A DNA stretch of 61,935 nt from a virus. Made by a program: the position numbers and the translations under genes. The first letter of the stretch is position 1; each line of letters begins with the position of its first letter. Where the stretch lies: IMG/VR virus record IMGVR_UViG_3300021976_000013, positions 1-61,935 of that record; one strand, given 5' to 3'. The notes below the pieces were generated by a model. The model ran no database searches, was not told where the DNA came from, and saw only the letters and a program-made list of their open reading frames with translations. Positions 4,748 through 52,978 of the stretch are shown here, piece by piece.

Positions 4748-6010
4748 ATGGCTGGCACCATCGTTGAACGGCTTCGCGAACGACGCATGCGCGTCTGGGA
4801 CGAAGCTAAGGGCCTGGCAGACGTGGCGGCTGACGAGAACCGCGCTTTCTCTGCCGAAGAGCAAGGCAAATGGGACTCTCTGAACGAAGAGATCGATGCC
4901 CTAGACACGCGCATGACGTCCGCTCTGGAGACGGAGAAGCGCGCCAAGGACACTGACGAGCTGTTCGACTCGATTCGCGGGCCGGTCAAGAACGCCAAGA
5001 CTCCCGAGAGCAAGCAGGCTGAAGATCGTTCAACCGAACTTCGCAAGTTCCTGCTCGGACAGTCCGGCCGGACGTACGACGTCAAGCCCGACAAGCCTGT
5101 TGACTTCCGTGTCCTCGGTAAGGTCGTCGCGGGCAACATCACCACTGCGGCAGCAGTCACGGTCCCGACGTCGTTCTATGACCGGCTGGTCGCTCACTTG
5201 ATCGAGGTCAGCGCGGTCATGCAAGCTGGCGCGACGGTGCTCTCTACCAGCTCGGGTGAAGTGATCCAGGTCCCCAAGACGACCGCTCACGGCTCGGCGG
5301 CACTGGTCGCGGAAGGTGCGGCTATCGGTGCGGGTGACCCGGCATTCGGGCAGATCTCTCTTGGCGCGTTCAAGTACGGCACGCTGATTCAGATCTCCCG
5401 CGAACTGATCGAAGACACGGGCGTCGATCTTGAGGGGTACCTCTCGATGCAGGCGGGCCGCGCGATCGGTAACCTCTTCGGCTCGCACGTGATCACCGGC
5501 ACCGGTACGACTCAGCCACGCGGAATCACGCTGGACTCGACTCTTGGCGTCACGTCAGCAACGACGGTCGCGGGTGTTCCCAACGGAGACAACCTGATCG
5601 ATCTCTTCTACTCGGTGATCGCTCCCTACCGGGCATCGTCGGCCACGAAGTGGATCGTCAAGGACTCGACCGTTGCGGCGCTCCGGAAGATCAAAGACAA
5701 CAGCGGCGGCGCTGGCATCGGAAACTACCTCTGGCAGCCTGGCCTCACGGCCGGTGCTCCTGACACGATCCTGGGCAAGCAGGTACTCACGGATCCGGGT
5801 GTCGCGGCCACCGGGCTCAACGCAAAGTCGATCATCTTCGGCGACATCTCGCAGTACTTCATTCGGATCGCGGGCGGAATCCGGTTCGAGCGGTCTGACG
5901 ATTTCGCGTTTAACACGGACATGGTCACCTTCCGGTGCCTCTTCCGTGCAGACGGCGCACTGGTGGACCTCACCGGCGCGGTTAAGCACTTCGTCGGTGC
6001 TGCCACGTAA
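4748..6010 (+). CDS. Major capsid protein, HK97 fold
   Basis: A 420-residue capsid protein. The first ~105 residues are charged and helical, a typical HK97 delta (scaffolding) domain that the upstream protease would remove. The rest matches the HK97 fold: VPTSFYDRLV, a GEVIQVPKT segment, the E-loop region around residues 170-200, and a C-terminal half ending in VRLFRADGALVDL-like sequence. A strong GGAGAGG site precedes ATG 4748. It should be among the most highly expressed genes, in line with its long leader and following terminator. Confidence 0.94.
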   Translation: MAGTIVERLRERRMRVWDEAKGLADVAADENRAFSAEEQGKWDSLNEEIDALDTRMTSALETEKRAKDTDELFDSIRGPVKNAKTPESKQAEDRSTELRKFLLGQSGRTYDVKPDKPVDFRVLGKVVAGNITTAAAVTVPTSFYDRLVAHLIEVSAVMQAGATVLSTSSGEVIQVPKTTAHGSAALVAEGAAIGAGDPAFGQISLGAFKYGTLIQISRELIEDTGVDLEGYLSMQAGRAIGNLFGSHVITGTGTTQPRGITLDSTLGVTSATTVAGVPNGDNLIDLFYSVIAPYRASSATKWIVKDSTVAALRKIKDNSGGAGIGNYLWQPGLTAGAPDTILGKQVLTDPGVAATGLNAKSIIFGDISQYFIRIAGGIRFERSDDFAFNTDMVTFRCLFRADGALVDLTGAVKHFVGAAT

Positions 6011-8000: not shown

Positions 8001-8510
8001 ATGCCACTAAGCACGCAAACACTGATCCAAGTGAATGCGTTCCTGTCGAACACGGGAGCGGATCTTACGGTCCCGTCGGCAAACATCGTGTTCGCGCAAC
8101 AGCTCAATCTCGACACGGGAACGGGCGCTGGCCAGGCGGACAAGGTCTATGTGGACACGAACACGCTCGGCGCGTCAGGCACGGTGGATATCGACTTGGC
8201 GGGCTCGCTGACCGATGCTCTCGGCGCGGCGTTGACCTTCGTCCGGGTGAAAGGGATCTTCATTCGCGCGGCGGTTGGCAACACTAACAACGTCGTACTA
8301 GGTGGCGCGGCGGCGACTCAGTTCGTCGGCCCGTTCGGTGCGGCAGCGCACACGATCGCAGTCCGGCCGGGCGGATTCTTCGGGATCATGTCGCAGGATG
8401 CTACCGGTTGGACGGTCGGCGCTGGCGCGTCGGACTTCCTTCGGGTGGCGAACAGTGCCGCAGGTACGTCAGTGACCTACGACATCCTGATCATCGGCGC
8501 GAGCGCGTAG
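8001..8510 (+). CDS. Structural protein, first of a tandem pair
   Basis: A 169-residue Gly/Ala/Thr-rich, beta-strand-rich protein. It is paralogous to the gene immediately downstream: they share NTNNVV-GGAAATQF, GAAAHT, VRPGG and the C-terminal YDI-IGASA signature. Candidates are a capsid decoration or tail-tube-associated protein, given its place between the neck and tail-tube genes. Start 8001 is preceded by a GAGGGAG site; an upstream in-frame codon at 7965 overlaps the previous gene and is less likely. Confidence 0.75.
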   Translation: MPLSTQTLIQVNAFLSNTGADLTVPSANIVFAQQLNLDTGTGAGQADKVYVDTNTLGASGTVDIDLAGSLTDALGAALTFVRVKGIFIRAAVGNTNNVVLGGAAATQFVGPFGAAAHTIAVRPGGFFGIMSQDATGWTVGAGASDFLRVANSAAGTSVTYDILIIGASA

Positions 8511-8520
8511 GGGGGAAACG

Positions 8521-9036
8521 ATGCCACTCGATACACAGTTCGTTACCTCGCTGGCAGCGAATCAGACGGCTACTCCGCTTGACATGTCAGTGTCACCCGT
8601 AGCAGCGCTGGCGTACACCAAGACGATCTCGCTAACCACCGGTACCGGGTTGAACCAAGCCGATCAGATTTTCTTTGATCAGCGAACGATCGCGATCTCC
8701 GGTACGGATGATCTCGATCTGGCAGGCGGCGTCACGCACTCGATCACCGGTGCCGCATTCTCGTTCGCGAGGATCAAAGGGATCCTGATCTATGCGGCCA
8801 TCGCGAACACGAACAATGTGGTCGTCGGTGGCGCGGCGGCGACTCAGTTCGCTACGTGGGTCGGTGCGGCAGCACATACGGTCACGGTCCGTCCGGGCGG
8901 GATGTTCATGCTCTTCGCCCCCGATGCCACGGCGTACGCGGTCACGGCCGCAACGGCTGATCTGCTCCGGATCGCCAACTCTGGCGCGGTCTCGACTGTC
9001 CTGTACGACATCATCCTTATCGGCGCGAGCGCATAG
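8521..9036 (+). CDS. Structural protein, second of a tandem pair
   Basis: A 171-residue paralogue of the preceding gene, more similar in its C-terminal two thirds than in its N-terminus. The pair therefore arose by duplication followed by N-terminal divergence. If these are decoration proteins, the pair could occupy different lattice sites. A GGGGGG-containing site precedes ATG 8521. One TGAC-N8-GTCA palindrome (8580-8595) lies in its 5' part. Confidence 0.75.
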   Translation: MPLDTQFVTSLAANQTATPLDMSVSPVAALAYTKTISLTTGTGLNQADQIFFDQRTIAISGTDDLDLAGGVTHSITGAAFSFARIKGILIYAAIANTNNVVVGGAAATQFATWVGAAAHTVTVRPGGMFMLFAPDATAYAVTAATADLLRIANSGAVSTVLYDIILIGASA

Positions 9037-9047
9037 GAAGGTTGATC

Positions 9048-18016: not shown

Positions 18017-18093
18017 CGTAAAGTAGCGATAGAAACAGCCCTACATGGATCTTGACGAGAGGCTCATGATCGGGCTGACAAGATCAATATACC

Positions 18094-18218
18094 CTCTGAC
18101 CTGGGGAAATCCCTATCTCGGGTAGGGTGGCATACGGGTACCCAACCTAGGGTTGAAGCCCTTAGCGTGGCTCTCAGGGCCGTCTAGGGGCAATCGCCTT
18201 TTCACTACGGAGCGTGAC
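18094..18218 (+). repeat. Dispersed intergenic repeat, copy A
   Basis: This 125-bp element begins with TGACCTG-GGAAAtCCC, continues with CGGGTA and a GGGTTgaaGCCC hairpin, and ends with the shared core CTCAGGGCCGTCTAGGGGCA. Related copies lie at 34233-34347 (+), 42146-42262 (+), 52866-52978 (+), 22227-22330 (-) and 47333-47449 (-). Here it is the leader of the lysis-region gene starting at 18221. The upstream part 18017-18093 holds no gene that I can see. Confidence 0.7.
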
Positions 18219-22226: not shown

Positions 22227-22330
22227 CATGGGCAGGGTCGGACCCCACATGCCCCTGGACGGCTCTGAGAGCCACGCTAACAAGATCCACCCCCGTCTGG
22301 TCACCCGGCTATCAACCCTGTCGAGATAGA
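22227..22330 (-). repeat. Dispersed intergenic repeat, copy E (inverted)
   Basis: Reading the minus strand, it shares GCTCTATCTCGA-AGGGTTGATAG and the core GCGTGGCTCTCAGAGCCGTC followed by CAGGGGCA with copy F at 42146-42262. The core contains the palindrome GGCTCTGAGAGCC. No gene is visible in 22227-22445. Confidence 0.7.
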
Positions 22331-22386
22331 GCCCTGACGACCCCTTGCAGCGCGATCGTTTTCAGGATGATCAGCTCTTAGCCGCT

Positions 22387-34223: not shown

Positions 34224-34232
34224 CGCACCCCT

Positions 34233-34347
34233 TCTGACCTGCGGAAATCCCTATCTCCAAGGGGGCCATCCGGGTATACCTAACTAGGGGTGTAACCCCA
34301 CACAGAGCATCTCAGGGCCGTCTAGGGCTAAATCACGGAGAGTGACA
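34233..34347 (+). repeat. Dispersed intergenic repeat, copy B
   Basis: TGACCTGCGGAAATCCCTATCTC as in copy A, then CGGGTATACCTAACTAGGGG with a GGGGtgtaaCCCC hairpin, and core CTCAGGGCCGTCTAGGGC. It ends in ACGGAGAGTGAC, matching copy A just before its gene start, so both act as leaders of the next gene. Confidence 0.7.
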
Positions 34348-41767: not shown

Positions 41768-42132
41768 CACACCACATCACCGACCGACGGCTAGAGCTGG
41801 CAGGCATCGTCCATCGGGCGTTGCTGCGCGCGGCGCTCGGCGAGTCGTACACGTACGAGATCATCCCCATGGTCCTGCCGAATCAGGCGGGTGGCGTAGC
41901 CGAGATCGGTTACGTGCTAGCCATCGCGACGAAGTCACCCTTGATCGGGCAGGGCTACATCACGATCATCAGTCAGCCGTTCACCTGGATGGCCGGTGAG
42001 GATCTCGTCACGAACATGATCTCGATCATGCTCACCGAAATCCGCTCGCACGTGAGCAAGATTCTCTCAGAAGCCAACGGCAAGCCAGCTTCCCCGCTGA
42101 TTCCTAGATCACCCGGAAATCCGAGGGGCTGA
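41764..42132 (+). CDS. Protein of unknown function
   Basis: A 122-residue protein from GTG 41764, overlapping the protease stop. It has a mixed alpha/beta pattern with a basic N-terminal helix and a long helix at 80-105. Coupling suggests a partner or substrate of the protease. Confidence 0.6.
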   Translation: MTHHITDRRLELAGIVHRALLRAALGESYTYEIIPMVLPNQAGGVAEIGYVLAIATKSPLIGQGYITIISQPFTWMAGEDLVTNMISIMLTEIRSHVSKILSEANGKPASPLIPRSPGNPRG

Positions 42133-42145
42133 GAGGGGTCGCCAA

Positions 42146-42262
42146 GGCTCTATCTCGAAAGGGTTGATAGGGATGGGTGCAGACGGGGGGTAAGGCCGGG
42201 AGCGTGGCTCTCAGGGCCGTCCAGGGGCATCAGGGGTCCGACCCTCCCGTGCGTATCCGAGG
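42146..42262 (+). repeat. Dispersed intergenic repeat, copy F
   Basis: GGCTCTATCTCGAAAGGGTTGATAG, then CAGACGGGGGG, then core GCGTGGCTCTCAGGGCCGTC followed by CAGGGGCATC. Closest to copy E. It lies between convergent genes, so it is not simply a leader. Confidence 0.7.
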
Positions 42263-42334: not shown

Positions 42335-42697
42335 TCAGTCCTTGGCGCATGCGGTCCAGCGGGCACCGGGATTGCAGTCGGTGAATCGATCTTCGTCATA
42401 CGCGAAGAACGTCTGTTGCCAGCAACCACCGTTCGGGTAGTTCTTGATCGCTACCCACCGGAGAATGGCGATCATGTCTTGTCCGTTGTGCTGCACCACG
42501 AACTGATCTTCCACAGTTCCTTGGTTGGCTGGACAGCCCGGCAGGCTGAAAGCCGTCTCGGACGGCTTGGCCGGTCGGCCGGTGCTCTTGTGCTTGCTCG
42601 GCTGATTGGTCGGCGTGGCCTGCTCGGCGCATGCGCTGGCGAACGCGATCGGTGGGAGCAGGGCGAGGGAGAGGGAGAGAACGATCTTTGTGATCAT
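42335..42697 (-). CDS. Secreted protein or lipoprotein
   Basis: A 120-residue protein with a signal peptide (MITKIVLSLSLALLPPIAFASA) and Cys23 next to it; the site ASAC is a weak lipobox. A Pro/Ser/Lys/Thr linker follows, then a small domain with four cysteines (LPGCPANQG, GGCWQQ, FTDCNPG, TACAKD), probably two disulfides. Exported; target unknown. Confidence 0.7.
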   Translation of the reverse strand: MITKIVLSLSLALLPPIAFASACAEQATPTNQPSKHKSTGRPAKPSETAFSLPGCPANQGTVEDQFVVQHNGQDMIAILRWVAIKNYPNGGCWQQTFFAYDEDRFTDCNPGARWTACAKD

Positions 42698-42819
42698 CTG
42701 TGGATCCCGTTCCAGAACGTGATCAGGGGGTCGGCGAACGCATCCCATCCTTGGGAGCAGACGAAGATCCCCGCGAAGATCAGCAGGGCAAGCAGGAAAA
42801 GAATGATCTTACCGATCAC
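42694..42819 (-). CDS. Small membrane protein
   Basis: A 41-residue protein from GTG 42819 with one membrane helix (MIGKIILFLLALLIFAGIFV) and a polar WDAFADP end. Its stop overlaps the start of the secreted protein, so they are coupled. An AAAGGTGG site lies upstream. Confidence 0.55.
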   Translation of the reverse strand: MIGKIILFLLALLIFAGIFVCSQGWDAFADPLITFWNGIHR

Positions 42820-42904
42820 GGTCCCACCTTTCCAGGAAGCCTAGGAAGATCAGGTAGAGCACGATCGTGCCGATGATCGCGGCTACCCACAGAACGTCAG
42901 ACAT
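42809..42904 (-). CDS. Small membrane protein
   Basis: A 31-residue protein, one helix (VLWVAAIIGTIVLYLIFLGFL) and a WDRDR end. Start preceded by GGAGTGATC. Overlaps the next gene by 11 nt. Confidence 0.55.
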   Translation of the reverse strand: MSDVLWVAAIIGTIVLYLIFLGFLERWDRDR

Positions 42905-42912
42905 GATCACTC

Positions 42913-43209
42913 CTATCCGAAGCAATCGCAGTCGTCCGCGTGGCCGGGCTGTTCGGTCGAGCCGTTGATCAGCGAGTCCACGAACGCGAATGCGTTCTCG
43001 GGAGAGTCGTCGTCCGGCCAACACTCGGGAGCCTGGTTAAGGATCTTCTGGAGCGCGTCGTCGTGCCGAGCCTGAAGATCGCTCAGGAGGTCGTACTTGA
43101 TCGCGAGGGTGTTGAGCCGGAACTGAAGATCGAGATTCTCGCTGGCAAGCTCTCGGATCTTGTCGGCAGCGAGAGTCTTGTAAGCCACGTAATCACTGTC
43201 AGAGATCAT
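42913..43209 (-). CDS. Coiled-coil protein
   Basis: A 98-residue protein. Residues 10-58 are helical (KIRELASENLDLQFRLNTL...), a probable coiled coil; the end is acidic with a HADDCDCFG Cys/His motif. Function unknown. Confidence 0.6.
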   Translation of the reverse strand: MISDSDYVAYKTLAADKIRELASENLDLQFRLNTLAIKYDLLSDLQARHDDALQKILNQAPECWPDDDSPENAFAFVDSLINGSTEQPGHADDCDCFG

Positions 43210-43227
43210 GGGGTGTGAGCCTTCCCG

Positions 43228-43252
43228 ACTGCCCCTGACGATCAGGGGCAGT
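43228..43252 (-). terminator. Terminator
   Basis: Hairpin ACTGCCCCTGA/TCAGGGGCAGT in the 72-bp gap between leftward genes. It is followed at 43261-43276 by palindrome TGACGCTTATGTGTCA. Confidence 0.75.
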
Positions 43253-43281
43253 CTGTTGGTTGACGCTTATGTGTCAGTAGG

Positions 43282-43629
43282 TCATGAAGCTTTTTTGATC
43301 TTCCGGTGCCGCTCGATGCGCTCGCGGCGGTTCTCTTCTTTGGTATCCGGCTGGATACATGCCGGGTTGAGGCAGATCGATATCCCACAGCGGTGGGACC
43401 ATTCGCAGCCCTCCGGAAGCGGGCCGTGGAAAGCCTCGCCGACGACCACATGGCCGCGACGGGTGCGCTTGATCTCTTCGACCCATACCGACGGGTAGCC
43501 AGGGTTGCACTGGTTTTGCTTACCGCCACCCCGTGACGTGCCACCTGTCCAGATCCAACAGCCGTCCGGGTTGATCACGCACTTCGCGAAGATCTTTCGC
43601 ATGGTCGGACCTTCGGTTGAGATGATCAT
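43282..43629 (-). CDS. HNH endonuclease-like protein
   Basis: A 115-residue protein with the phage HNH_3 layout: GCWIWTGGTSRGGG, GYPSVWV, EAFHGPLPEGCEWSHRCG and CLNPACIQPD...EEN. The usual NPxH histidine is a cysteine here, so activity may be altered. Start 43629 overlaps the preceding stop (TGATG). A shorter start at 43602 with AAGGT is possible. Confidence 0.75.
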   Translation of the reverse strand: MIISTEGPTMRKIFAKCVINPDGCWIWTGGTSRGGGKQNQCNPGYPSVWVEEIKRTRRGHVVVGEAFHGPLPEGCEWSHRCGISICLNPACIQPDTKEENRRERIERHRKIKKAS

Positions 43630-44018
43630 CACTCGTCCCTGTCGTTGATCCCGTTGGCGTTGTTGTCGGTGACTCCGAACCATGCCAGCGGCGGACCGTC
43701 AGAGCATGGCCCCAGGTCTTCCCACGGGCACGCTGGCGGCCGTTCGGCCGGTGCTTGGTGTCCGAGTAGCCGCTTGAGAACGTGGTCCGTCTTGGGCGTA
43801 CTCAGGGCTTCGGACGCGGCACGGCCGACCTTGGAACCGGCCTTGCCTGCCTCGCGACCGATCGTCTGGTGACCCTCTACCAGAGTGCCGAGATCGTTCG
43901 AGGTCTTGCAGCCTGCGATGAACGCGCCGACGATCAGCATGACCACCGAGAGCCGCTTGAGCTTGCGAGTGATCTTGACCCGGTGGGACTTCGTGATCTT
44001 GGGGAGCTTGATCTTCAT
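43629..44018 (-). CDS. Lipoprotein with acidic tail
   Basis: A 129-residue protein: very basic N-terminus (KIKLPKITKSHRVKITRKLKR), hydrophobic VVMLIVGAFIAGC with lipobox and Cys39, a helix around 60-75, and an acidic NANGINDRDE end resembling a thrombospondin-3-like calcium motif. Start preceded by CTGATC. Confidence 0.6.
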   Translation of the reverse strand: MKIKLPKITKSHRVKITRKLKRLSVVMLIVGAFIAGCKTSNDLGTLVEGHQTIGREAGKAGSKVGRAASEALSTPKTDHVLKRLLGHQAPAERPPACPWEDLGPCSDGPPLAWFGVTDNNANGINDRDE

Positions 44019-44020
44019 GA

Positions 44021-44281
44021 TCAGTTCCACCCCTCGAATCGGAAGCCAAGGTAACCGTTCGCGCGGGTCATCTGCTTGCAGTCGTCGCACGTGAAGATCC
44101 GGAGTTCGGAGCCGGGCCGACCGGTGAAGACCTGCCGACCGAAGCACACAGGGTTGCCACACCTAGCGCTGGCGGTGGCCACGTAGGGAGTCAGCGAGAG
44201 CACGGGGGAGTGCGGGATGCTGGTCGGCGCGTCGGGAAGGTCGGCCGAGTAGCCGTCATGTCCTTGCGGGTGTACATCCAT
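44021..44281 (-). CDS. Zinc-ribbon-like protein
   Basis: An 86-residue protein with RCGNPVCFG and FTCDDCKQM, two Cys pairs about 28 residues apart, probably a zinc ribbon. The N-terminus is disordered. Function unknown. Confidence 0.6.
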   Translation of the reverse strand: MDVHPQGHDGYSADLPDAPTSIPHSPVLSLTPYVATASARCGNPVCFGRQVFTGRPGSELRIFTCDDCKQMTRANGYLGFRFEGWN

Positions 44282-44307
44282 TCTTGATCTCCAGTTCTGG
44301 GAGTCTT

Positions 44308-44347
44308 GATCAATTGGACGTTAGTAGGGGCACCCTCGCGGGTGCCC
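44308..44347 (-). repeat. 40-bp direct repeat with terminator hairpin, copy 1
   Basis: GATCAATTGGACGTTAGTAG followed by GGGCACCCTCGCGGGTGCCC. It is identical over 40 bp to 44585-44624. The hairpin suggests a terminator for leftward genes; identity suggests recent duplication. Confidence 0.85.
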
Positions 44348-44352
44348 GATGA

Positions 44353-44559
44353 TCACTTTCCCTTACGCTCGCGGCGCTTCTGTTCTCTTTCTGCGGCAGC
44401 AGCTCCCCAACGACCGCTACGAAGATCACTTATGCGATCTTGCATTCTCTGGTGATCTCGTCTGAGTTCGGCATCCCAACGGAAGAACATGGTGGCGATG
44501 GCGATGAACGGAACGGAGACGGCGATCAAGACGGAGATAAAAACGATGGTGTCCGACAT
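44353..44559 (-). CDS. Single-pass membrane protein
   Basis: A 68-residue protein with an N-terminal membrane helix (TIVFISVLIAVSVPFIAIATMFF) and a basic cytoplasmic helix (ELRRDHQRMQDRISDLRSG...). Flanked by two identical terminator repeats, so it is a self-contained cassette. Confidence 0.6.
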   Translation of the reverse strand: MSDTIVFISVLIAVSVPFIAIATMFFRWDAELRRDHQRMQDRISDLRSGRWGAAAAEREQKRRERKGK

Positions 44560-44584
44560 GCTGTGATCCTTTCTGTCGGCTGTA

Positions 44585-44624
44585 GATCAATTGGACGTTA
44601 GTAGGGGCACCCTCGCGGGTGCCC
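44585..44624 (-). repeat. 40-bp direct repeat with terminator hairpin, copy 2
   Basis: Identical to 44308-44347; followed by CTTTG. Together they flank the small membrane-protein gene. Confidence 0.85.
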
Positions 44625-44640
44625 CTTTGTCGGCCGTAGA

Positions 44641-45303
44641 TCACTTCAAGGTGATCTTGGGGGCCTTGGCGTAGGTCCATCCGTACTTGTTCGCGCACCA
44701 CTTGCCGAACCCGTTGAAGATCGAGTTCTCATCGGTCAGCGTCTTCGCGCATGCACAGCAGGTGCCGTACAGACAACCGAAAGCCTTGGCTTGCTCAGTG
44801 GTCATCTTGTGCTCGGGACGAAGCCGGGCGACGATGCCGGGAGCGTAGTCGAAATGTGCTTCGGCCGGACGGACGACCTTGCCGTCCTCGAAGATCGCCG
44901 GGACGTCGGTGACCAGGACCTTGGCGTACATCTTGCCGGATCCGTGGACGGCTTTCTGAACCTTGTAGATCTTCATCTCCGGGCCGTTGTCGAGACTGAC
45001 CATGTACATACCAGCCTCAAGATCGGCAGCGGGCGCGGGAGTGGCCGGGTTGCTCGGGAGATTGACCTTGGGCGTGTCGAGCAGGAGCTTGATCATGCGA
45101 CTGGCGTCACGCTTGCTCAGCGTGCTGATCTCGACGACGCTGCCGGACGTGGGGTCTTCCATCTTGTTCCATGCCAGGTCAAGCATCTTCCATCCGCGCT
45201 CGGTGCAGAGCTTGACGATGAAGTTGATCTGCTTGTCGCTGGCGTCCATCGTGTTCGGGCCGAAGGGGTCACTCTCGCGAAGCTGGCGGGTGGCAGTCCT
45301 CAT
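44641..45303 (-). CDS. DUF6011-like protein
   Basis: A 220-residue protein. It starts with ASDKQINFIVKLCTERGW, common in phage DNA-associated proteins, and has a C-terminal metal-binding-like domain (TTEQAKAFGCLYGTCCACAKTL, DENSIFNGFGKWCANKYGW) like DUF6011. The central part is a beta domain. Function of the family is unknown. Confidence 0.75.
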   Translation of the reverse strand: MRTATRQLRESDPFGPNTMDASDKQINFIVKLCTERGWKMLDLAWNKMEDPTSGSVVEISTLSKRDASRMIKLLLDTPKVNLPSNPATPAPAADLEAGMYMVSLDNGPEMKIYKVQKAVHGSGKMYAKVLVTDVPAIFEDGKVVRPAEAHFDYAPGIVARLRPEHKMTTEQAKAFGCLYGTCCACAKTLTDENSIFNGFGKWCANKYGWTYAKAPKITLK

Positions 45304-45331
45304 GATCTTGTCCCTTTCTGGGAATTTTTGG

Positions 45332-45363
45332 CCGACCGACCGGGGGCAGATCCCCCGGTCGGC
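45332..45363 (-). terminator. Hairpin between leftward genes
   Basis: GCCGACCGACCGGGGG/CCCCCGGTCGGC stem. Just beyond it, TGAAGCTTAAGAGTCA (45364-45379) is a one-mismatch palindrome copy at the gene end. Confidence 0.65.
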
Positions 45364-45369
45364 TGAAGC

Positions 45370-45552
45370 TTAAGAGTCAGAGACGGGCGGGTTGATGATC
45401 AGGTTGAATTCTTGATCACGCTCGGCGTCGATCGTGTCGAGGTAGAGATCGTGCTCACAGCGTGCGGTGCACTTGGTGCACCACTGTGTGATCAACACGT
45501 CCCCGTAGTCGGGCAGGTCTTTGATCAGCTCACGAAGCTCGCCGATCTTCAT
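45370..45552 (-). CDS. Small Cys-containing protein
   Basis: A 60-residue protein: MKIGELRELIKDLPDYGDVLI, WCTKCTARCEHD and an acidic end. The first part resembles small phage proteins starting KxxELxxxLxxLPxDxxV. ATG 45552 has a GAAGGTGATCAC context. Confidence 0.6.
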   Translation of the reverse strand: MKIGELRELIKDLPDYGDVLITQWCTKCTARCEHDLYLDTIDAERDQEFNLIINPPVSDS

Positions 45553-45556
45553 GTGA

Positions 45557-45709
45557 TCACCTTCCGTCGCAGCCGTGGCAAGCACAGCTTGTGCAGTTCT
45601 CGCAGTGCTCGCTGAACGGGAAGGTGCATCCCTCGCAGCAGTCACAGAGGAAAGGACCTTGGCCACAGTGCTCGCAGACGGTCCCGATGATGTTCACGCG
45701 CTCTTTCAT
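45557..45709 (-). CDS. Cysteine-rich microprotein
   Basis: A 50-residue protein with 11 Cys and 3 His (VCEHCGQG, LCDCCEGC, HCENCTSCACHGC). The pattern would bind two or more zinc ions, or form disulfides. ATG is preceded by GATC. It was too short to be noted by length alone; its open frame, composition and spacing (stop 4 nt before next start) support it. Confidence 0.6.
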   Translation of the reverse strand: MKERVNIIGTVCEHCGQGPFLCDCCEGCTFPFSEHCENCTSCACHGCDGR

Positions 45710-45730
45710 GATCTCTTCCGATCGTTAGTG

Positions 45731-45755
45731 AGCCGGGAGCCAAACGCTCCCGGCT
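45731..45755 (-). terminator. Terminator
   Basis: Stem AGCCGGGAGC/GCTCCCGGCT with a CAAAC loop after the small wHTH gene. Confidence 0.8.
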
Positions 45756-45762
45756 GATCTTG

Positions 45763-45969
45763 CTAGTTCTTGATCGAGTAGTAGGACTGCTGATCTTCGT
45801 CATTGAAGATCCGCTCGACGAGCCCTTTGCGAAGCAGGGCTTCGGCCGGGCCGATCTTGAATCCGGGGAGCGCGGTCCGAGCGAAGGCGAGGTTGCCACC
45901 GGGGAACGGCTTGCCGTAGCTCCGGAGAGCCTCAAGGCATTTGGTCTGTGCGGGAGTCAGTTCGACCAT
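45763..45969 (-). CDS. Small winged-helix-like protein
   Basis: A 68-residue protein: ELTPAQTKCLEALRSYGKPF, AFARTALPGFKIGPAEALLRKGLVERI and a YYSIKN end fit a winged helix. It lies behind the first copy of the conserved ~140-nt leader and could be regulated through it. ATG 45969 is preferred; GTG 45978 lacks a ribosome-binding site. Confidence 0.6.
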   Translation of the reverse strand: MVELTPAQTKCLEALRSYGKPFPGGNLAFARTALPGFKIGPAEALLRKGLVERIFNDEDQQSYYSIKN

Positions 45970-45990
45970 GGTGATCACTCTCTCTGTTTG

Positions 45991-46134
45991 GATCTTTAGG
46001 GTCTTTCTGGTCGAGCAATTCAGTTAGCCCTGAAAGGGGATCCTTATCGAGTATCCGAGCGGGAGGATCATTCCCGGCTTTCGCTCCGCGTGGCCGGGTG
46101 ATCCGGCCCTTCGGGGCTACTAGCTGTTCTCTTG
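45991..46134 (-). ncRNA. Conserved structured leader, copy 1
   Basis: About 140 nt lying between a good leftward promoter and the wHTH gene. Most of it aligns with 47087-47226. Predicted stems include GGG-GATCC/GGATC...CCC (46036-46043 with 46065-46075), TTCAG/CTGAA with GGCTAA loop, and CCGG-GTGAT-CCGG. One base pair of the first stem changes compensatorily between copies. A cis-regulatory RNA is likely. Confidence 0.6.
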
Positions 46135-46142
46135 TAAGACCC

Positions 46143-46171
46143 AATCTAGTCAGAGCTTGCCAAGGTGTCAA
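46143..46171 (-). promoter_or_regulatory. Leftward sigma-70-type promoter
   Basis: On the minus strand, TTGACA (46171-46166), exactly 17 bp, TAGATT (46148-46143). The -35 is in CTTGACACCTTGGCAAGC, a copy of the operator inverted repeat. The transcript starts about 46136, at the edge of the conserved leader. Confidence 0.8.
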
Positions 46172-46224
46172 GGAGATATGTCCGGTTCAAAAGTCACGGT
46201 CATGTAACGCTTTTAGGGTGAAGC

Positions 46225-46248
46225 TGGGGAGTCCCGAAGGACTCCCCA
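46225..46248 (-). terminator. Terminator after the SprT-like gene
   Basis: Stem TGGGGAGTCC/GGACTCCCCA with CGAA loop. Confidence 0.8.
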
Positions 46249-46253
46249 CAAGA

Positions 46254-47042
46254 TCACACTTCCTCGAAGCTCTTGTCGCATGCTCCGCAAGTAACTTCGG
46301 CCGTCTCGAATGCGGTCCGGCTCATGCGCAAGATCCGAGGCTTGTCGCAGCCGCAGACGGCTTTGATGTTGTTCCGGCTCACGGTGGTCGTGGGGGTCTT
46401 GGCGCGCGGGATCCGGATCGTCGTCCCACCGGTGGTCGTTCCGCCGGTCGTACTGGAGTCTCCGAAGCCGGGGAGGTAGGTCTTGATCGCGGCGTCAAGA
46501 GCCTTGATCTCTGCGGCGTACCGAGCCTTGCCAGCTTCGGTGAAGGTGACCGCGCTGAAACCGTGCGTCGTGTCGGGGTCGAGCACTTCCTTGCCCTTGG
46601 CGTTGACCTTGGTGTGCTGGTAGTCAAGGCCAAGCTCGCGGCAGATCTCGACGAAGATCATGTTGTGGTAGCGGTTGCCCCTGCTCGTGTCCTGCTCTTC
46701 GCGGACAGCGGCGATTGCGTGCGCGGCTTCGTGCAGGAGGCTCTGCATGGTCAGCTCAGCGCCACATGCGAGACGCTCACCGGAGATGAACAGCTCGGCT
46801 CGCTTGCTCTTGTCGTTCTTGTCTTCCCAACGCTCGCGCCAGAAGTGCGCCCACTTCGCGCCCATCAGGTCGAGCCCGGATCCGGTGATCATAAGGACTT
46901 CGGGAACGTCCAGGTTCTTTGCGATGATCGCTTTCCAAGCGGCTTCCAGAGCCTTGATCAGTTCCGATCCGGTCTGCGGGCGGGTCTTACGAACGCGCGG
47001 CTTGCGGGTGGCGGGCTTGCGGGCGGTAGTAGCAGTAGCCAT
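46254..47042 (-). CDS. SprT-like zinc metalloprotein
   Basis: A 262-residue protein. Residues 100-130 hold HEAAH (His104, Glu105, His108) and a candidate third ligand in NRYHNMIF (His126). A Thr/Gly linker (TTGGTTTGGTT) near 200 separates it from a C-terminal zinc ribbon (VCGCDKPRIL, VTCGACDKSF). SprT/Spartan proteins cut DNA-crosslinked proteins; here it may clear replication or packaging blocks. The N-terminus is basic and disordered. It lies behind leader copy 2. Confidence 0.85.
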   Translation of the reverse strand: MATATTARKPATRKPRVRKTRPQTGSELIKALEAAWKAIIAKNLDVPEVLMITGSGLDLMGAKWAHFWRERWEDKNDKSKRAELFISGERLACGAELTMQSLLHEAAHAIAAVREEQDTSRGNRYHNMIFVEICRELGLDYQHTKVNAKGKEVLDPDTTHGFSAVTFTEAGKARYAAEIKALDAAIKTYLPGFGDSSTTGGTTTGGTTIRIPRAKTPTTTVSRNNIKAVCGCDKPRILRMSRTAFETAEVTCGACDKSFEEV

Positions 47043-47086
47043 GATCAGTCCCTTTCTGGGATCTTGCTCGGGTCAGTCTGTCGGTT

Positions 47087-47226
47087 GATCTTTAGTGGTC
47101 GAGCGATTCAGTTAGCCCTGAAGAAGGGGTTCCTTGTCCTTGAATCCGAGAGGGAGGAACGGTCCCCGCTTTGGCTCTGCGCGACCGGGTGATCCGGCCC
47201 TTCGGAGCTACTCACTTGTTCTCTTG
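47087..47226 (-). ncRNA. Conserved structured leader, copy 2
   Basis: It pairs with copy 1 at 45991-46134: the same hairpins, with the GTTCC/GGAAC stem (47129-47133 and 47156-47160) replacing GATCC/GGATC. It lies between the upstream repeat region and the SprT-like gene. A TTGACA-GGTAA-GCAAGC operator-like promoter start is at 47296-47285 (minus), but its -10 box is unclear. Confidence 0.6.
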
Positions 47227-47332
47227 TCTCTTAAGAGTCGCTCATAGCTTGACCCATGGACAATAGCGCCAAGGCTATAGCTTGCTTACCTGTCAAAGTT
47301 CCCTGATCAGGGCATGCGAAGAGCCGCACAGC

Positions 47333-47449
47333 GACAATGCCCCTGTACGGCTCTGTAGTCCACGCTAAGGGGTTCTACCCCTAGTCAGGTATACCCGGAC
47401 CAGTCTTCGACGATCAAGGTGTCCGAGTCTTTGACCTGCGGAAACGTCC
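47333..47449 (-). repeat. Dispersed intergenic repeat, copy C (inverted)
   Basis: On the minus strand: GTTTCCGCAGGTCA, then GGTCCGGGTATACC, then CTAGGGGTAGAACCCCTTAG hairpin, then core GAGCCGTACAGGGGCA. Very like copy D. It fills most of the gap to the next leftward gene, where no ORF is seen. Confidence 0.7.
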
Positions 47450-52867: not shown

Positions 52868-52978
52868 GTTTCCGCAGGTCAGAGACCCGGACCCCTTGAT
52901 CGTCATGAGGTGGTCCGGGTGTACCCAACTAGGGGTGTAGCCCCTTAGAATGCAGCTCAGGGCCGTACAGAGCCATGT
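52866..52978 (+). repeat. Dispersed intergenic repeat, copy D
   Basis: GTTTCCGCAGGTCAGAG, GGTCCGGGTGTACCC, CTAGGGGTGTAGCCCCTTAG hairpin, and core CTCAGGGCCGTACAG. Compared with copies A and B the first CCGCAGGTCAG segment is inverted. No gene is visible to 53059. Confidence 0.7.

Follow-up and report, generated by a model that had tools for sequence, protein, structure and literature searches.

A probable lineage-specific leader RNA in front of two unrelated genes in an operator-controlled regulon of a virus

Two unrelated genes with one leader

Why should two genes that have nothing in common begin with the same untranslated sequence? This question is raised by a locus in the virus record IMGVR_UViG_3300021976_000013, which was analyzed over its entire length of 61,935 nucleotides (the window). 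In a blastn comparison positions 46135-46008 aligned with positions 47227-47096 at 83% identity across 132 nt (E 7e-33), and a self-comparison of the record gave a repeat of 165 nt at 79% identity (E 1e-30) that occurs exactly twice, both times on the same strand. Copy 1 (46008..46135, minus strand; its end falls at 46006-46008 depending on the alignment) is the 5′ UTR of a gene for a winged-helix protein, and copy 2 (47096..47227, minus strand) is the 5′ UTR of a gene for a SprT-like protein. In both cases the strong similarity ends upstream of the ribosome-binding site. An initial annotation of this DNA had described the alignment with its coordinates, its strand and the genes behind it, and all of these were recovered from the sequence, its open reading frames and blastn.

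The gene behind copy 1 (45763..45978, minus strand, with an alternative ATG at 45969) encodes 71 amino acids. Its AlphaFold2 model has the order H-H-H-E-E (pLDDT 68) and yielded MarR-like winged-helix proteins as structural matches (best E 0.011). The gene behind copy 2 (46254..47042, minus strand) encodes a protein of 262 amino acids that belongs to PHROG 6361 (E 8e-28) and whose relative in phage Samy is named a putative SprT-like metalloprotease. The two proteins are unrelated, in agreement with the initial annotation. Between the SprT gene and the promoter of copy 1 lies a 10-bp GC hairpin without a U-run (46225..46248, minus strand), and the same layout is found at 5729-5752 of the syntenic relative L015.

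The reading to which we lean, as the best explanation of the locus, is a lineage-specific, cis-acting leader RNA of about 130 nt, which would form the first bases of two messages in one operator-controlled regulon. It is based on the start of the block at the predicted +1, on the unrelated genes behind it, on the lack of a reading frame conserved as coding sequence and on a long-range helix (P1) that is kept in both copies. Counted against it are the availability of only two sequences, the even spread of their substitutions, the fold of the antisense strand, the lack of a homologue and the promoter of copy 2. A small mobile repeat of the MITE type was also considered. For such an element several dispersed copies would be expected, yet exactly two are present on one strand, and the pairwise alignment revealed no obvious terminal inverted repeats or target duplications.

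Promoters and a genome-wide operator

Copy 1 is preceded by the promoter that had been proposed for it, TTGACA (46171-46166) and TAGATT (46148-46143) with a spacer of 17 nt (46143..46171, minus strand). It agrees with the consensus in 10 of 12 positions and is the only such site on the minus strand of the region from 42 to 53.5 kb. The +1 deduced from this consensus match lies at about 46135, seven bases past the -10 hexamer, and coincides with the first conserved base. More than any other observation, this edge of the block hints that what the two copies share is the transcript rather than the DNA. Copy 2 lacks a consensus promoter and has only a TTGTCC hexamer with an operator, spaced from the block as in copy 1. 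As no -10 element is recognisable there (the best candidates being GCGACT or CGACTC), its promoter may be weak, may need help or may be misjudged.

The operator is a 15-bp inverted repeat, TTGMC-N5-GKCAA, that recurs throughout the genome and is a candidate site for a binding protein. A perfect copy (TTGAC-N5-GGCAA, 46157..46171, 10/10) covers the -35 element of copy 1. Upstream of copy 2 lie a 9/10 site at the copy 1 distance (TTGTC-N5-GTCAA, 47249..47263) and a second 9/10 site (TTGAC-N5-AGCAA, 47282..47296). Scanning the window revealed 11 perfect sites and 10 further sites with one deviation, where 0.14 perfect sites and about 5 sites of both kinds together would be expected. The perfect sites (20829, 21729, 22387, 24400, 27532, 35359, 35808, 46157, 49496, 49529 and 52994) are mostly intergenic, and many of them lie on -35-like hexamers that are followed by a weak -10. 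L015 likewise carries three perfect sites within 10.7 kb, and its own SprT gene is preceded by a 9/10 site. The equal distance of the operator from both copies, together with the 11 perfect sites, indicates that the leaders belong to one phage regulon. Judged from the sequence, both lie behind promoters of this regulon, which is presumably repressor-controlled. This operator set stands independently of how the leaders are read and shows common control of both of them.

Cluster A mycobacteriophages of the L5 type also have numerous repressor-type operator or stoperator sites scattered through their intergenic DNA (PMC9283540). The likeness concerns the control region and not the leader, and the L5-type sites are asymmetric and 13 bp long, whereas the sites in the window are 15-bp inverted repeats on -35 elements. 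Prophage origins that rely on an RNA, as in cluster A phages (PMC7157519), were considered as well, and no evidence ties them to the leader.

A long-range helix and a divergent interior

The consensus fold of the two copies comprises 31 pairs, none of which is broken; one pair has changed in a compensatory manner (A-U to U-A) and two have changed from G-C to G-U. When one copy was mutated at random with the same changes, the P value was 0.05 with copy 1 as the starting sequence and 0.002 with copy 2. On the antisense strand, however, the consensus fold comes close to this energy (P = 0.38 and 0.01).

In the ensembles of the single sequences, P1 (UAGCYC-GAA with UUC-GGGCUA) is likely for both copies. 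In copy 1 the strand UAGCCC.C.GAA (46110..46119, minus strand) pairs with UUC.A.GGGCUA (46025..46034, minus strand) at probabilities of mostly 0.7-1.0, with 0.56 for the outer U-A pair. In copy 2 the strand UAGCUC.C.GAA (47201..47210, minus strand), which differs by one G-C to G-U change, pairs with 47113..47122 (minus strand) at about 0.8 for most pairs. Outside P1, a helix of three pairs (GAG/CUC) reaches 0.8 in copy 1 and 0.6 in copy 2; otherwise the two copies fold differently there. For copy 1, another fold is lower in energy than the consensus. Copy 1 is more stable than its shuffled versions (z -2.7), whereas copy 2 is not (z 0.2).

The initial annotation had named three stems. The change from GATCC/GGATC to GTTCC/GGAAC is indeed present and amounts to the one A-U to U-A pair. 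The stem itself, however, has a probability of about 0 in copy 1, because a competing 12-bp hairpin wins, and of about 0.3-0.4 in copy 2. The CCGG/CCGG hairpin is absent from the ensemble of copy 1, where a 12-bp alternative prevails, and reaches 0.95 in copy 2. The UUCAG/CUGAA stem and the better-supported P1 are mutually exclusive. As the sequences of the latter two stems are invariant, they are uninformative for or against pairing.

Taken together, the evidence for folding is modest: a P1 common to both copies is plausible, whereas a more elaborate common fold goes beyond what these models support. The case for selection on a defined fold is weak, with two sequences, a single compensatory pair, a shuffle test of borderline outcome and an antisense strand that does nearly as well. 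Conservation of the proposed structured RNA so far extends only to the two copies of one genome. The initial interpretation is supported in part, a leader that acts as RNA being the best reading. A pseudoknot at the start site, between a loop GAUCAC and GUGAUC at the start codon, is kept as speculation, since GATC is over-represented throughout the phage.

Relatives of the leader

None of the Rfam 15 covariance models scored above its gathering threshold in the whole window, and up to E 10 only chance-level matches appeared. The initial annotation had likewise matched the leader to no riboswitch class that could be named safely. Homologues of its DNA were absent from cultured phages and plasmids. 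In IMG/VR, four patterns revealed no homologue: 12 matches to the 16-mer TTCAGGGCTAACTGAA were judged to be due to chance, 17 matches to AGTAGCNCCGAAGGNCC were unrelated to the leader, and a gapped two-block pattern and a 21-mer had no matches. One gapped pattern likewise found nothing in 84,980 genomes, although such pattern scans would miss strongly diverged relatives.

The downstream genes were also followed. No relatives of the winged-helix protein were found that could have led to leader homologues, a search for SprT in genome contigs gave none, and neither a covariance model nor blastn detected the leader at 80 SprT loci. The covariance model R1, which recovers both copies in the window, found no leader in 47 whole virus records, with the syntenic relatives L015 and L132 among them. 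A covariance search of the 24 records reached via a neighbouring intergenic repeat family gave none either. The SprT protein of L015 is 61% identical to that of the window; the leaders behind the corresponding promoters of L015 and L132 have a length of about 50 nt, and relatives carry SprT in another position. As far as is visible in the collections searched, the leader thus appears to be lineage-specific. The covariance search that the initial annotation had proposed led to nothing beyond the two copies, and the lack of homologues elsewhere, which it had named as an argument against its own reading, holds for every collection searched and counts against that reading.

Alternative explanations

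The main rival of the leader RNA is a duplication: as the SprT gene came in by insertion or shuffling, a cassette of promoter and leader would have been copied, and its copies would be drifting without any function as RNA. We regard this as possible, though on balance doubtful. The copies are direct repeats that flank exactly one gene, an arrangement that would permit gain or loss of the SprT cassette via recombination. Their substitutions are evenly spread, and the longest identical run is what chance would give. The short leaders and different SprT positions in relatives fit this explanation as well, as do the borderline structure tests with their similar antisense control. It accounts less well for the extent of the block, which runs from the predicted +1 to before the ribosome-binding site and not across promoter or gene, and for the G-C to G-U and compensatory changes, which preserve all consensus pairs. 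If the leader is a drifting duplication, the finding is an ordinary one.

It is unlikely that the block acts as DNA, as a region downstream of +1 to which the phage repressor or another DNA-binding protein binds. In favour of this, the operators nearby belong to a genome-wide set of DNA elements, the block itself contains perfect palindromes (CCGG-N5-CCGG), and the adjacent gene encodes a winged-helix protein. However, parts of the block, unlike the operator, do not recur as motifs anywhere else in the window; a binding site of 130 nt would be long; and the G-C to G-U changes fit only the RNA strand.

A metabolite riboswitch or a strict attenuator, both of which had been suggested initially, is disfavoured and appears very improbable. 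Long segments are invariant, and P1 and UUCAG/CUGAA, being exclusive, could form a switch. Yet no Rfam model matched beyond chance, no relative turned up in the viral, genome, phage and plasmid collections, and the copies fold differently outside P1. Neither leader contains a U-run hairpin, a terminator-like site on the minus strand or an evident sequestered ribosome-binding site, and the downstream genes are not metabolic.

That the leader is a remnant of protein-coding sequence is hardly credible: although the frame VAPKGRITRPRGAKAG... is kept between the copies despite indels, a net indel of 3 restoring it, no start codon follows the promoter, a stop lies directly upstream in copy 2, the excess of synonymous changes is not significant (P 0.16 for the best frame) and tblastn found nothing in phages below E about 2, findings which refute a present-day gene.

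A possible role in elongation

Returning to the leader RNA, its nascent chain would fold around P1 (nt ~17-26 with ~102-111), enclosing a domain rich in hairpins, and it would affect expression of the downstream genes after initiation. It may act on the elongating polymerase by anti-pausing or processive antitermination. This role is put forward tentatively and we consider it rather doubtful. It is proposed because copy 1 heads a leftward gene block of ~3.8 kb (46.0-42.3 kb) in which strong GC hairpins follow most genes and no further operator-promoter is present. These hairpins (42550-46248, minus strand) have 8-12 bp, lack U-runs and stand behind most of the small leftward genes; several of them are followed by CTAACG. 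A polymerase modified by the RNA would pass these many hairpins. Antitermination is nevertheless not required by them, as they lack U-runs and L015, which has no such leader, carries similar ones behind SprT and DUF6011. Control of mRNA stability or of translation is the main alternative for what the leader RNA might do.

The RNA of the HK022 put sites contacts the β′ zinc-binding domain and thereby causes read-through of distant terminators. It is present in two related copies, putL and putR, downstream of two early phage promoters (PMC9378689). The leader may resemble this arrangement: it too has two related copies in one phage, both within one operator set, but copy 2 lacks a consensus promoter. 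Like putL (PMC9378689), it would occupy the first bases of its transcript. However, put consists of ~70 nt with two adjacent stem-loops, whereas the leader has 134 nt and a long-range P1 that encloses other helices. Its two messages are adjacent on one strand and its host is presumably an actinobacterium.

Leader RNAs that stand first in operons containing internal hairpins are also known from conjugation operons of the pLS20 type (conAn2) and from exopolysaccharide operons (EAR) (PMC8955417), and the leader resembles them in this position. Yet conAn2 works together with its partner protein ConAn1 and acts on canonical terminators, whereas the hairpins in the window have no U-run. No Rfam family matched the leader.

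By analogy with put and conAn2, the leader could represent a new class of phage RNA that modifies actinobacterial RNA polymerase in cis from two promoters of one repressor regulon, a proposal that we rate as improbable. To our knowledge, few antitermination systems are known in actinobacterial hosts. If true, an RNA that alters elongation in actinobacteria would introduce a regulatory principle new to these phages and provide a useful tool for this host group. Any function of the leader as RNA would make it a cis-acting phage leader of no known class, present twice in one genome and thus self-controlled for experiments.

Other repeats in the window

A second intergenic repeat family, of ~110 nt, has six copies in the window (18092-18189, 34230-34327, 42107-42248 and 52868-52976 on the plus strand; 22231-22372 and 47337-47445 on the minus strand). 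At least four are present in L015, and most copies lie shortly after a stop codon. The core of this family, ~30 nt long (AGCGTGGCTCTCAGRGCCGTMYAGGGGC), occurs in about 20 further IMG/VR records with a G+C content of 38 to 67%, with weak matches in phages of Rhodococcus and Mycobacterium and in plasmids of Nonomuraea; the records carrying the family include L015 and L120-L143. RNAalifold gave no consensus structure for this family, and three of its loci had no Rfam match. The leader was considered as a member via the shared AGGGCTAA and rejected, as no similarity was found beyond about 8 nt. This repeat family is possibly more interesting than the leader.

GATC is over-represented 2.4 times in the whole window (1250 occurrences on both strands versus 519 expected) and often stands directly before a start codon (GATCATG). 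In relatives it reaches 13-18 per kb, and the observation also covers L015, L120 and L132. In the SprT-carrying viruses L021, L026, L045 and L048, the repeats near SprT are strong promoters in several copies with a largely fixed spacer, TTGACACTTCACAGTCAAGCCTGTAANGTT. Finally, positions 8222-8511 and 8748-9037 of the window form a tandemly duplicated coding region within the structural gene cluster, with 67% identity over 290 nt.
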